DNA of 64,000 nt from Acidobacteriota bacterium (GTDB lineage Bacteria; Acidobacteriota; Blastocatellia; UBA7656), in assembly GCA_040754075.1 (NCBI GenBank), contig JBFMDH010000015.1:1-64000 (forward strand), written 5' to 3'. A program made the position numbers and the translations under genes. Of this stretch, positions 10,247 to 59,326 are shown one piece after another; positions within the stretch are counted from its first letter, which is position 1, and each line of letters begins with the position of its first letter. The notes beneath the pieces are model-generated. The model saw only the letters and a list, made by a program, of their open reading frames with translations, was not told where the DNA came from and made no database searches.

Positions 10247-12061
10247 ATGAATAAAGTGGGCTTGATTAAAAATCTGGCAGATAATTTTGCCCGGTTGCTT
10301 GAAACCGAGCACCGACTTGGTGATTTGCAAATCCAGGAACTGCTCGAATCCATCAAACTGATTCAGGGAGACACCGCAGACCGCCGCTTTCAACAAATCA
10401 TCAATCAATTGAGAGCCTTGCAAAATCGCTTGAAGGCGCTCGCCGAAATCGGTCGCGACGATTATTTGAAAAAGCTGATGCAGGCAAGCGACGACCTGTC
10501 GCTGGGACTTGCTGACCGCCGCATCGCAAAAATTTTAGAGACCCTGTTTGAGCCGCGCGCCGTCTCCTTGAACGCCTTTTGCGCGCAGTTGCTCGATGCG
10601 TTAATCGATGCGACGCAGGCAGAGCGCGGCTTCCTGCTTTTTTATGTCCCCGAATCCACCGAAGCCGACATTATTGCAGCGCGCAATTACTCGACCATGA
10701 ATCTTTCGGTCGGCGAATATCATTTCAGCCGCACGCTGCTCAGAGAAATCTTTCAATGTCAGTCTTCACTGTTGATTGATGATGCTTCGCAAGACCGCCA
10801 TTATTCGGCGGAAGCCAGCATCATCCGATTCGGCATTAAATCGGTGGTGGCGGCTCCGTTAAAGCATCTGACGAGAACCGTGGGGGCGATTTATCTGGAA
10901 AACAATTCGCGCCCCTGCGCCTTTGACGAGCAGGATTTGCAGGTTTTGGAAAGCGTGACGCGATTGGCGCTCTTTTACCTGGAACAGTGCCGATTGTTGC
11001 CGGAAGCCTTTCACCGAAAGAGCAGCGTATTTTTAGACGCCAGTAAAGCGTCGCGGGAAATCATCGGCGCAGACCCGGCGATGCTCACTTTGCTGGAAAT
11101 CATCGAACGCATTGCCGACTCGCGGGCATCGGTGTTGATTGAAGGCGAATCGGGAACCGGCAAGGAACTGGTGGCGCGCGCCCTGCACTATCAGAGCAAT
11201 CGCCGGGAAAAAGCCTTCATTGCCATCAACTGCGCGGCAATTCCCGATGAGTTGCTGGAATCGGAACTCTTCGGTCATGAAAAGGGCGCGTTTACCGGCG
11301 CTACAGAGCGTCACATCGGGCACATTGAACAGTCCGATGGGGGGACGCTGTTTCTTGATGAAGTGAGTGAACTGGCTTATCCGTTGCAGGCGAAATTGCT
11401 GCGGTTTTTGCAATCTCAGGAATTTCGCAGGTTGGGCGGCAAAGAGATATTGAATGTGGACACTCGCATCATTGCTGCAACCAGCAAGGATTTGAAGGCG
11501 ATGATGGCAGAAAGAAAATTTCAGGAAGCGTTGTATTATCGCCTCAATGTGGTGCCCGTCAAATTGCCCGCCCTGCGCGAAAGACGCGGTGATATTCCTA
11601 TGTTGGCGGATTATTTTTTCGACAAATTTGCAACCATCTACGCAAGAGAAATCTCCGCCTCACGCGAAGTTTATGAAATGCTCGCCGCTTATGATTGGCC
11701 CGGCAATGTGCGCGAATTGGAAAACCTCATTCATCGTCTGGTGTTGCTCAGTAAAGAACCGGCTATCTATCCGGGCGATTTGCCGAAAGAAATTCTCGAC
11801 GTCAAACCGCAACGCATCAACCTTGAAGGCGACCCGCTGTATCAATGCCTGCATACACTGCCCGCCACTCTTGAAGAGTTGCGGCGCAGACGTAAAGAGG
11901 TGCAACGATTATTTGCCGAGCAGAAACACCAGTTGATTGACCAAGCGATTGCCGAGGCAAACGGCAACCTGACCGAAGCGGCAAACCGACTGGGCGTTAA
12001 TCGGGTCACCCTACACAAAATTCTCCGTAATGCTCAAAATGACTCGCCAGTGAAAAAGTGA
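10247..12061 (+). CDS. Sigma-54-dependent transcriptional activator (GAF - AAA+ - Fis HTH)
   Basis: A 604-residue bacterial enhancer-binding protein. Residues 1-100 are a helical region of unknown type, about 105-250 a GAF sensor, about 272-500 the AAA+ sigma-54 interaction domain, and 563-604 a Fis-type helix-turn-helix ([20 protein letters not shown]). The AAA+ domain has Walker A GESGTGKE (300-307), the sigma-54 contact loop GAFTGA (347-352) and Walker B GGTLFLDE (365-372), so it should remodel sigma-54 holoenzyme using ATP. It lies 21 bp after the kinase-STAND-WD40 gene and is probably co-transcribed with it. Right after its stop are two copies of a 19-bp palindrome and a -24/-12 promoter, which are the obvious candidates for its own binding sites. 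Confidence 0.93.
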
Positions 12062-30482: not shown

Positions 30483-30545
30483 CAGTAGCCCGACCGTAAG
30501 GGAGGGCGTTTGCGTCTTGCGCCCTCCCTTACGGTCGGGCTACTG
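30483..30545. terminator. Perfect 26-bp hairpin after the second phosphofructokinase gene
   Basis: Arms 30483-30508 and 30520-30545 are perfect reverse complements around an 11-nt loop. The GC-rich stem starts 3 bp after the stop codon. No T run follows, so it is more likely a dispersed palindromic repeat that may stabilise or end the transcript than a classical terminator. Confidence 0.65.
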
Positions 30546-30555
30546 ACACGTTCAA

Positions 30556-30598
30556 TCATTGGTCATTTGCAAAACACTTTCGGACAAATGACCAATGA
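30556..30598. repeat. 14-bp inverted repeat (TCATTGGTCATTTG)
   Basis: TCATTGGTCATTTG at 30556-30569 pairs perfectly with 30585-30598. The same short words (TCATTGGTCAT) occur at 29152, so this is one of the dispersed intergenic repeats of this genome. Confidence 0.8.
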
Positions 30599-30691
30599 CA
30601 AGTGACAACTGCCCAATGACCCTAATCCATTCGCATTCAAAATCAAAAAGCTTTAAACTGTCGCCACACCATTTCGATTTCAGGGGGAGCG

Positions 30692-55733: not shown

Positions 55734-56054
55734 ATGCACTGGCTATTTTTGATTGTCGCGATTGTCCTGGAAGTTTCCGGCACTACCTGTATGAAACTAT
55801 CCCAGGGGTTTACGAAACTGGTGCCTTCGATTTTGATGTTCATCTTTTACGTCACCAGCCTCGGCGCGCTGACGCTGGCATTGAAAAAGATTGATGTGAG
55901 CCTGGCTTATGCGGTGTGGTCGGGGATGGGCACGGCATTGATTGCGACCATCGGCATCCTCTGGTTTGAAGAACCGCTGAACGCTTTGAAACTGGTTTCG
56001 CTGGCGCTCATTATCATCGGCGTCATCGGCATTAATTTAAGCGGCGCGCATTGA
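55734..56054 (+). CDS. Small multidrug resistance (SMR) family transporter
   Basis: A 106-residue four-helix membrane protein with the proton/drug-binding Glu13 in IVLEVSGTTCMKLS, VSLAYAVWSGMGTALI in helix 3, and a C-terminal helix ending INLSGAH. It should act as an antiparallel dimer exporting cationic compounds or guanidinium. It is spaced 15 bp from the oxidoreductase gene and probably co-transcribed with it. Confidence 0.92.
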   Translation: MHWLFLIVAIVLEVSGTTCMKLSQGFTKLVPSILMFIFYVTSLGALTLALKKIDVSLAYAVWSGMGTALIATIGILWFEEPLNALKLVSLALIIIGVIGINLSGAH

Positions 56055-56292: not shown

Positions 56293-56308
56293 TGGCACAG
56301 GGCTTGCC
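56293..56308 (+). promoter_or_regulatory. Sigma-54 (-24/-12) promoter
   Basis: TGGCACAGGGCTTGCC matches the consensus TGGCAC-N5-TTGC exactly, with 10 bp between the GG and GC doublets. It lies 239 bp after the SMR gene. A perfect 12-bp palindrome GACAAATTTGTC (56110-56121), about 200 bp upstream of the expected start point, is a possible activator site. Confidence 0.75.
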
Positions 56309-56318
56309 TTCCATACGG

Positions 56319-56597
56319 GCGACAATTCTTGTAGCGGAATGTCTTCACCTGTGCGGCTGGATTAAGAGGAGGCCAGCCGCACAGGCATCCAAATTCATAA
56401 ATGTTTTAAACTGACGATTCATATGGTTTTTAAAAGGGCTTCAATACATAGGTTCCGAACAAATCAATAACGGTTTGCCACTACTCTCTTGAAGCTGATG
56501 GGTGAATAGGTACCTCCCTTGGTATTCATTGGCTTCTTCACGTCAGAGTTCAGGATGCAGTCGCCGAGTCTCATCCTGGACTCTGATACATTTTTTC
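56319..56597 (+). ncRNA. Candidate small RNA (or long structured leader) from the sigma-54 promoter
   Basis: Downstream of the -24/-12 element is a perfect 13-bp hairpin (56348-56360 with 56373-56385, CCTGTGCGGCTGG arm). Its 12-nt loop ATTAAGAGGAGG exposes a Shine-Dalgarno-like, GGA-containing sequence. A 15-bp hairpin with one G-U pair (56543-56557 with 56572-56586) followed by six T ends the segment. No ORF longer than a few codons with a ribosome site lies between. It could be a free small RNA of about 275 nt, or a leader with an attenuator for the zinc-ribbon/FHA gene at 56721. The 5' end is inferred from the promoter only. Confidence 0.5.
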
Positions 56598-56720
56598 AGT
56601 CAATCGACTGCGCGCCGCTTTACCTGCCAATAAGCCTTTTCTCGCACAACGCTTTCAAACAAATCAGCCTTTTCGTATAATGTCGCGGAAGTCATCAGAG
56701 TAAGGAGCGAGCTTAGAACT

Positions 56721-58007
56721 ATGATAACCTGTCCGAATTGTGGCGCGGAAAATCGCGATGGCGCGCCATTTTGTCGTATGTGTGCGGCATCGCTTGAAGC
56801 GGCAGGCGCTTCGATGCAGATGCCGGCACCGCCTTTGCAAATCACCTGTCCGGTTTGCAAAACCACCAATGATGCCGACTGGGCGTTTTGTCAGGAATGC
56901 GGGTACAAACTGAGCGCCGAAAAACCGAAAACCGAACCGGTTCAACCTCCGCCAACCCCTCCTTCATCGTTTGACCGCGAAACCGTCATCATGCGCGATA
57001 CCGGAACCGCTCCGATTAATAAACCGGTGTTTGACCCGGCGGCGACCGTCGTGGATATGCAAATTCCTCCGGTGGAGGCTGCGGTCAATCCGCCACCGGT
57101 TGAACGCATTCCCACTGCGCCGGTTTCGCAACCGCCAACGCCGCCCAAAACCGAATCGACTTTGCCGCCTGTGCCACCGACGGTTGTGCATCAAGCGCCG
57201 ACGGTTGTGACCAATTCGCCATCAACTGCACCGGTGCCGCCTACGGTTGTGCACACAGCGCCAACTGATGTGCAAGTCGAAAATAAAATGACCGAACCGA
57301 AACCTGCGGTTACGGGTTCGCCGGAACTGACGACCGCGCCAACCTTTTTCAATACCGCATCGGATGAAGCTACGACCATCGTTGAAGAGAGTCAGAACTA
57401 CGCGCCTGTGAAAAGCGGTAATGAAGTGGTGTGCCCGAAATGTGTGCATAAAAGCGCCGCCGGAAGCCTGTTCTGCGCCAATTGCGGCGCGGCGCTGACG
57501 CCATCGGCACTGACGCCATCAGCACTGACGCCATCCATACCGATTCCACCGCCGGTTCCACAAACGGTGCCGACGCCGGTTGCCACGACGCCGACGCCAG
57601 TTGCGCCAACGCCAGTTGCGCCGACGCCGGTTGTGCCGACTGCGCCGACCAATGTGCCGACCGCGCCCGCCAGTTCTGGTGCAGGGCACACTCTGGTGAT
57701 TTCATCCATGCCGGCGCCGCCTGCCGTGCAAGGCAGATTGCATCTGGTGATGGAAGGCGGGCAGACCGGCGAGGTCTATGATTTACAAGAAGAGACCGGC
57801 ATTGGTCGCACCACAGGTCAAATTACCTTCCCGCACGATGGTTATATGTCGGGTCGTCATTCAAAAATTATTCAACGCGGTAGCGATTTCTTTTTGGTTG
57901 ATGAAGGCAGTCGCAATGGCACCTTCGTGCGTATCAAAGGCGAAGTCAAACTTGAGCCGGGCGACATGATTTTAGTTGGCAAACAGCTATTTCGTTTTGA
58001 AAAATAG
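56721..58007 (+). CDS. Zinc-ribbon and FHA domain protein
   Basis: The 428-residue protein has three zinc ribbons (Cys4-type: 4-21, 43-60 and about 238-257, e.g. CPNCGAENRDGAPFCRMCA). A long Pro/Thr/Val-rich linker includes repeated SALTPSALTPSALTPS and PVAPTPVAPTPVV. The C-terminal FHA domain (about 335-428) has GRTTGQITFP, SGRHSKI and RNGTFV for phosphothreonine binding. It is probably a cytoplasmic reader of Ser/Thr kinase signals. The PP2C gene starts 86 bp later. Confidence 0.9.
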   Translation: MITCPNCGAENRDGAPFCRMCAASLEAAGASMQMPAPPLQITCPVCKTTNDADWAFCQECGYKLSAEKPKTEPVQPPPTPPSSFDRETVIMRDTGTAPINKPVFDPAATVVDMQIPPVEAAVNPPPVERIPTAPVSQPPTPPKTESTLPPVPPTVVHQAPTVVTNSPSTAPVPPTVVHTAPTDVQVENKMTEPKPAVTGSPELTTAPTFFNTASDEATTIVEESQNYAPVKSGNEVVCPKCVHKSAAGSLFCANCGAALTPSALTPSALTPSIPIPPPVPQTVPTPVATTPTPVAPTPVAPTPVVPTAPTNVPTAPASSGAGHTLVISSMPAPPAVQGRLHLVMEGGQTGEVYDLQEETGIGRTTGQITFPHDGYMSGRHSKIIQRGSDFFLVDEGSRNGTFVRIKGEVKLEPGDMILVGKQLFRFEK

Positions 58008-58093
58008 TTGCCAGGCGCGACTGCGACAAGCAGCCGAAATCCTTTTGGGCATTTTCGGATGGCTTGCCGGATACTGAGGTTAGAGGCTACCGG

Positions 58094-59326
58094 ATGAGCG
58101 ATGTTTCGATTTCACTGTTTGCTGATACACACGTTGGCATGCGCCGTGCGGCAAATGAAGATTCATTTTTAATCGCCGATTTAACCCGCAGCGAAAATGA
58201 CAACGGCGCTGAACTCATCGCCCATTCGCTTGGCGACAACGGTTATCTGATGGCAGTCTCCGATGGCATGGGGGGAGCCGCCGCCGGTGAAGTCGCCAGC
58301 GAACTCGCCGTCCGTACCCTTTTTGAAGAACTCACCAAACCCCTTGCCTGTGAGTCGCTCGCCGAACATTTGCAAATCGCTACGGAAATCGCCAACGAGC
58401 GCATCTGGAATTATGCCCAACAAAATCCCGAACTTTTAGGTATGGGCGCGACCTTGACCGCCGTGCTGGTCAAAGACAACATCGCGCACATCGCACAGGT
58501 CGGCGATTCGCGCGCCTATCTCATCCGCAATGGCAATGCCGAACAACTCACACGCGACCAGTCCCTGGTGCAAGCCTTGTTGGATTCGGACATGATTCAA
58601 CCCGACCAGGCGCATTTGATTCCGCAAAACGTCATTCTTCAGGCGCTCGGCACGCAACCCGCTGTAAGCGTGGTGATGACCGAAATGGAACTTTGTCAGG
58701 GCGATCTGTTATTGGTTTGCAGCGACGGGCTGTCGAATAAAATCCGCGATGAAGAGATGCCACGGGTGATTGGCGAAACCGATAATCTGAAAGCCGCAGG
58801 CACACGCTTTATCGAAGTCGCCAACGAACGCGGCGGCGAAGACAACATCACGGTGATTGTCGCGGCGTTTAGCGGCGCGGATTTGAAAGCGACGACGCAG
58901 ACCAAACGCATCACCGGAAGTTATAACGCCTTTGAAAAGACCATCTCTTACGAAGAAGCGGCATTCATTGCCAGCCGTTATGTGCCGCCCAACGGTCAGG
59001 ATGACGAGGCAAGCGACGAAGAGCATCGCGCGCCGGTAACCGGTGTTCTCAGGATGCCCGCAAGTCTCGCTGCCGAAGCCGAAAACGCCGATGGACAGGG
59101 CGAATATATTACGGATGCCACGCAGGCGAGAGAATTTTTTGAACGCCAACGCACAGCAAACGAACGCCGCAACCTGACCATGTGGATTATCGCTCTGGTG
59201 TTATTATTGTTGCTTGCCGTCGCCGGTTACTTTTTCGTCAAACCCCGATTTGAAAAACACAACGACAGCGAACGCCCGACCGAAAACCTCAACCGCAGCC
59301 CAAGCCATTCTTTATTGCATAGTTGA
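58094..59326 (+). CDS. PP2C-family Ser/Thr protein phosphatase with C-terminal membrane anchor
   Basis: The 410-residue protein has the metal-dependent phosphatase motifs in order: RRAANEDSFLI, AVSDGMGGAAAGEVAS, GMGATLTAVLV, VGDSRAYLI, LLVCSDGLSNKI and GGEDNITVIV. After about residue 250 comes a linker, and one membrane helix (about 358-380, WIIALVLLLLLAVAGYFFV) leaves the enzyme facing the cytoplasm. The ATG at 58094 with GAGG upstream is preferred to a TTG at 58064. With the FHA protein before it this forms a phospho-signalling pair, presumably opposing a Hanks-type kinase. Confidence 0.92.
   Translation: MSDVSISLFADTHVGMRRAANEDSFLIADLTRSENDNGAELIAHSLGDNGYLMAVSDGMGGAAAGEVASELAVRTLFEELTKPLACESLAEHLQIATEIANERIWNYAQQNPELLGMGATLTAVLVKDNIAHIAQVGDSRAYLIRNGNAEQLTRDQSLVQALLDSDMIQPDQAHLIPQNVILQALGTQPAVSVVMTEMELCQGDLLLVCSDGLSNKIRDEEMPRVIGETDNLKAAGTRFIEVANERGGEDNITVIVAAFSGADLKATTQTKRITGSYNAFEKTISYEEAAFIASRYVPPNGQDDEASDEEHRAPVTGVLRMPASLAAEAENADGQGEYITDATQAREFFERQRTANERRNLTMWIIALVLLLLLAVAGYFFVKPRFEKHNDSERPTENLNRSPSHSLLHS

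Follow-up and report, generated by a model that had tools for sequence, protein, structure and literature searches.

Several small RNAs (sRNAs) are known to be sigma-54-dependent, including Qrr1-4 of Vibrio, GlmY of enterobacteria and CrcZ of Pseudomonas. The RNA studied here, encoded in a 64,000-nt stretch of DNA (the window, on contig C15) that belongs to an acidobacterial genome of 7.58 Mb, resembles them in being intergenic and located behind a very probable RpoN promoter, but it matches no Rfam family. It also differs from Pxr of Myxococcus xanthus, which is ~108 nt long, adjoins a sigma-54-dependent regulator gene and is conserved across myxobacteria, whereas the window RNA would measure ~280 nt, has no adjoining activator gene and has no homolog in the genomes searched. 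Like the CsrB/RsmZ-type decoys, it has a hairpin presenting GGA in its loop; however, it displays one 12-nt GGA loop instead of repeated ANGGA hexaloops, in a genome without CsrA. A full-text search of the literature turned up almost nothing about acidobacterial small RNAs in connection with sigma-54. Taken alone, the window RNA is probably a sigma-54-dependent sRNA, a kind already known, and if transcribed it would represent a case of such RNAs emerging inside one lineage. A distinct family of twin-hairpin RNAs, which is backed by covariation, absent from Rfam and tied to sigma-54, constitutes a stronger and more valuable result and is presented in the last section.

Probable sigma-54 promoter and predicted transcript

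The features of the locus, all on the + strand, are the following.

56293-56307, +: sigma-54 -24/-12 promoter TGGCAC-N5-TTGC (exact match, intergenic, RpoN in the genome)
56319-56596, +: predicted non-coding transcript of ~278 nt (fold z -5.74, no ORF, single copy; predicted start and end)
56348-56385, +: hairpin 1, perfect 13-bp stem, loop ATTAAGAGGAGG at 56361-56372 (inverted-repeat search, fold)
56491-56536, +: hairpin 2, apical loop with CCUCC at 56513-56517 (fold)
56543-56596, +: hairpin 3 (56543-56586), then TACA and T6 (56591-56596); terminator-like, imperfect
56654-56681, +: sigma-70-type promoter TTCAAA-16-TATAAT of the FHA/PP2C operon, outside the RNA (80% identity over 79 bp with relative G001)
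56721-58007, +: zinc-ribbon/FHA protein gene (context)
58064-59326, +: PP2C-type protein phosphatase gene (context)

The consensus -24/-12 promoter motif announced in a preliminary description of the sequence was confirmed. The box (TGGCACAGGGCTTGC) carries its GG and GC dinucleotides at the correct spacing, as in sigma-54-dependent sRNA genes, and is directly followed by a C where the full consensus has A/T. Within the window, the motif taken at two mismatches showed no excess over chance (35 matches versus 43 expected). Genome-wide, exact TGGCAC-N5-TTGC sites numbered 41, versus 18 for a reversed control motif, and 28 of them were located outside ORFs of at least 100 aa, where ~2 were expected from the control. 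Only 11% of positions count as non-coding by this ORF criterion, a share taken from the window, which gives P ~1e-17 for 28 of 41 sites. RpoN is encoded in the genome (PF04552, E 2.5e-58). Given this genome-wide excess of exact sites outside ORFs and the presence of RpoN, the 56293 box is very probably a promoter and, with 28 sites counted for ~2 expected, about nine in ten of the intergenic exact sites should be real. Approximately half of all exact sites are followed by a ribosome site and an ORF ~47-110 nt downstream; the 56293 site is among the few without a near downstream ORF. A search for an activator site upstream of the box yielded 6-bp palindromes and shared words at chance level only. 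Transcription is predicted to start at ~56319, 12 nt past the -12 GC, and we lean towards a real transcript being produced from this promoter. Elsewhere in the window, a gene at 10247-12061 (+), directly 3' of a WD40-repeat serine/threonine kinase gene, encodes a sigma-54 activator-like protein with a GAFTGA motif (read by eye).

Folding of the 281-nt region gives -94.4 kcal/mol (z -5.74), a value matched by none of 200 shuffled sequences. The arms of hairpin 1, CCTGTGCGGCTGG and CCAGCCGCACAGG (56348-56360 and 56373-56385), form the perfect 13-bp inverted repeat that had been described; perfect repeats with arms of 13 and loops of 3-20 occur in 2 of 20 resampled windows. Hairpin 2 had gone unmentioned in the preliminary description. 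Hairpin 3, presented there as a strong terminator-like hairpin with a T run, is indeed strong (-27.2 when folded alone, z -6.7), but its function as a terminator is in doubt. Termination at this hairpin is less certain because 4 nt separate the stem from the T run, the T6 starting only after TACA in the 3' sequence TACATTTTTT. The terminator scan did not include hairpin 3 among its calls, and its T-tail score was 1.74 versus 3.67 and 4.76 for two sigma-54 RNAs encoded elsewhere in the genome. The imperfect terminator makes the product length uncertain. Two adjacent long perfect inverted repeats, exceeding those usual in resampled sequence, were also noticed at 30493-30540 and 30556-30600 of the window.

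In agreement with the claimed lack of a coding region, no ORF with a ribosome site was found in 56319-56597. A potential leader peptide, MSSPVRLD (56340-56366), was discarded as lacking a ribosome site, and AGGAGG was rejected as a Shine-Dalgarno sequence since no start codon lies within range. The region is single-copy in the genome, and a repeat or mobile element was rejected on this ground. Its G+C content is 46% versus 51%.

Complementary loops and absence of CsrA

It had been proposed that the AGGAGG loop is exposed and could titrate a regulator of the CsrA type. CsrA (PF02599) is absent from this 100%-complete genome, the same search being positive in E. coli, B. subtilis and T. maritima, and CsrA titration is thus ruled out. 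The predicted fold contains a single GGA-bearing hairpin loop, against the several of CsrB/RsmZ-type RNAs. That the loop is exposed is itself doubtful, given the strong complementarity of the hairpin 2 loop, whose CCUCC is the best complement of the hairpin 1 loop within the transcript. The duplex between both loops reaches -11.5 to -13.1 kcal/mol. In controls, 0.36% of doubly shuffled loops attained -11.5, as did 0.02% of the 15-mers sampled from the window; the complementarity itself was observed post hoc. The AGGAGG/CCUCC pair suggests a loop-loop switch, with the two loops presumably meeting in vivo. Hfq is encoded in the genome.

A mechanism may be proposed from these elements. RNA polymerase carrying sigma-54, together with an enhancer-binding activator, would transcribe the gene into an RNA of ~280 nt with three hairpins and ends close to those predicted. 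The CCUCC loop of hairpin 2 would pair with the Shine-Dalgarno sequences of putative target mRNAs, while hairpin 1, whose AAGAGGAGG loop is the complement of the CCUCC loop, would keep the latter in loop-loop contact until a target competes. This base-pairing mechanism is a guess and may well be wrong. Alternatively, the RNA could serve as a protein decoy (sponge), its purine-rich loop binding an RNA-binding protein other than CsrA. A G-rich loop on a rigid perfect stem would suit such a role, and a separate sigma-54 RNA family of the same genome carries one G-rich octaloop twice on covarying stems, a twin-loop architecture typical of decoys. However, the window RNA lies outside that family, displays a single copy of its loop, which moreover has an internal complement, and the genome is devoid of CsrA; a decoy function is therefore quite improbable.

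The FHA/PP2C operon and the search for homologs

The RNA region is preceded by an SMR transporter gene ending at 56054 and followed, as stated in the preliminary description, by a phospho-signalling gene pair encoding a zinc-ribbon/FHA protein and a PP2C phosphatase. Relative G001 keeps the gene order luciferase-like (LUC)-SMR-FHA-PP2C. Alignment of the intergenic regions is significant only over the last 79 bp, which are 80% identical and contain the FHA gene's TATAAT box. Neither the sigma-54 box nor the hairpins are present at the syntenic place in G001, where the corresponding region consists of unrelated sequence carrying its own repeats. The RNA thus appears, from this comparison, to vary independently of the FHA/PP2C operon. 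The stretch could also be read as a long leader of this operon with hairpin 3 acting as an attenuator, being on the same strand, 125 nt upstream of the FHA gene, and ending in an imperfect terminator that could allow readthrough. Nevertheless, the TTCAAA-TATAAT promoter of the operon lies downstream of hairpin 3 and is retained in G001 (80% over 79 bp), which has neither sigma-54 box nor hairpins despite the same LUC-SMR-FHA-PP2C order. A separate operon promoter that persists in a syntenic genome lacking the RNA makes a leader role unlikely, the attenuator version of it very much so, and a functional tie to the gene pair is not upheld. Another PP2C phosphatase gene of the genome has an exact sigma-54 promoter ~80-100 nt upstream (L028, G000:C4:243957).

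Searching 162 genomes of the class with a 282-nt covariance model recovered only the RNA itself and one 14.5-bit fragment, with a first filter coarse enough for a very diverged homolog to escape. DNA similarity searches gave weak short matches and no homolog, the five that were inspected being GC-rich or unrelated sequence without promoter and hairpins. No homolog was recovered by synteny, including a neighbouring-gene search across 85,000 species, nor with a promoter-plus-GAGGAGG pattern, for which the inspected matches differ in being mRNA leaders. No Rfam covariance model scored above its gathering score on the window RNA, excluding identity with a known RNA family, and a viral collection searched with the loop returned one chance match lacking the stem. 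Without a homolog in the 162 class genomes or at the G001 locus, nothing indicates that the structure of the window RNA is under selection.

The lack of conservation in these searches, the unrelated G001 counterpart with its own repeats and the low G+C (46% vs 51%) would fit a chance promoter match in a rapidly changing intergenic region, with hairpins representing a functionless relic such as a decayed element. On the other hand, judging from the excess of exact sites outside genes, chance would account for roughly one in ten, the hairpins are strong (z -5.7 for the whole region) and the second genomic copy that a mobile element would predict is missing, so that a relic seems a rather unlikely explanation. 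The small RNA reading is favoured by the site excess, the presence of RpoN and Hfq, the fold z-score, the loop complementarity, the sibling sigma-54 RNAs and the separate promoter of the operon. Weighing against it are the missing homologs, the offset T run, the lack of a clear activator site upstream and the post hoc nature of the loop complementarity. Taken together, the best reading is a lineage-specific sigma-54-driven small RNA. The complete proposal, namely a stand-alone gene of this type producing ~280 nt with three hairpins and acting most likely by base pairing, is one that we hold as evenly balanced, transcription being predicted from the promoter and fold. Of the preliminary interpretation, the sigma-54 promoter and the structured non-coding stretch were retained, while CsrA titration and the link to the gene pair were not.

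Elsewhere in the class, other genera have an mRNA leader driven by sigma-54 promoters (L153, L156-L159, L161-L163, with L160 similar). The Shine-Dalgarno stretch CAUGAGGAGG of a gene for a small proline-rich protein, which is probably secreted, can pair there with a CCCUCCCAUG-type segment of the leader; such a leader is a possible translation switch.

A twin-hairpin RNA family

Other sigma-54-driven structured non-coding stretches are present in the same genome, one set of which is conserved. Four other intergenic sigma-54 sites each precede two hairpins built on the same design: a stem, a G.G (once U.G) mismatch, 3 bp and the octaloop ANGGGGGC, with differing stem sequences. Many members share the linker GAAGCGACAGACA. 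The loci are as follows.

Own genome: L021, L025 (=L140), L029 (=L119), L035 (=L133)
Relatives: L120-L125, L134, L135, L136, L138, L141-L143

A model built from three of the four own-genome loci retrieved L021, which had been left out. Each of the seven genomes belonging to the bacterial family gave matches, most of them at two or three loci, with the best E value of a genome ranging from 1e-20 to 1e-36, and nothing convincing was found outside this bacterial family. Among 12 members, 96.2% of cells pair, versus 74% in shuffled controls and no more than 61% in slid ones, and 21 of the 24 pairs have changed on both sides; the alignment had been fitted to the model, a procedure that favours pairing. 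Several orthologs have kept their neighbours across genera, for instance a RadA-like or a PP2C gene, as named from sequence read by eye and a PP2C search. No Rfam family matches these RNAs. As judged from sequence comparison, they form a well-conserved sigma-54-driven non-coding family that is new to Rfam and shows strong covariation.

The window RNA shares with the twin-hairpin RNAs a sigma-54 promoter, an intergenic location, a first hairpin ~20-30 nt past the start and a G-rich loop, but it lacks the octaloop and the G.G mismatch. Against the twin-hairpin covariance model R2, its promoter alone matched (7.5 bits), which ruled out membership of the family. One may speculate that this lineage possesses a sigma-54-activated layer of structured G-rich-loop RNAs operating without CsrA, combining twin-loop decoys for an RNA-binding protein with lineage-specific RNAs, a scenario to which we attach little probability.

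Additional sigma-54 sites were noticed. In L126 and L127 (family f3), repeated TTTGGGGGAGGC / TTTCGGGGGAACG segments that lack the ANGGGGGC octaloop come after the promoter; could these be a second type of G-rich-loop RNA? At L101 (G000:C43, near 53488), a CRISPR-like array with the repeat GTTTCAATTCCACGATGGTTCGATTGATGC has a sigma-54 match within or beside it, which is probably due to chance. Finally, L044, L098 and L099 of the own genome are sigma-54 sites without a near ORF that are followed by strong hairpins, with a terminal hairpin and T8 in the case of L099.
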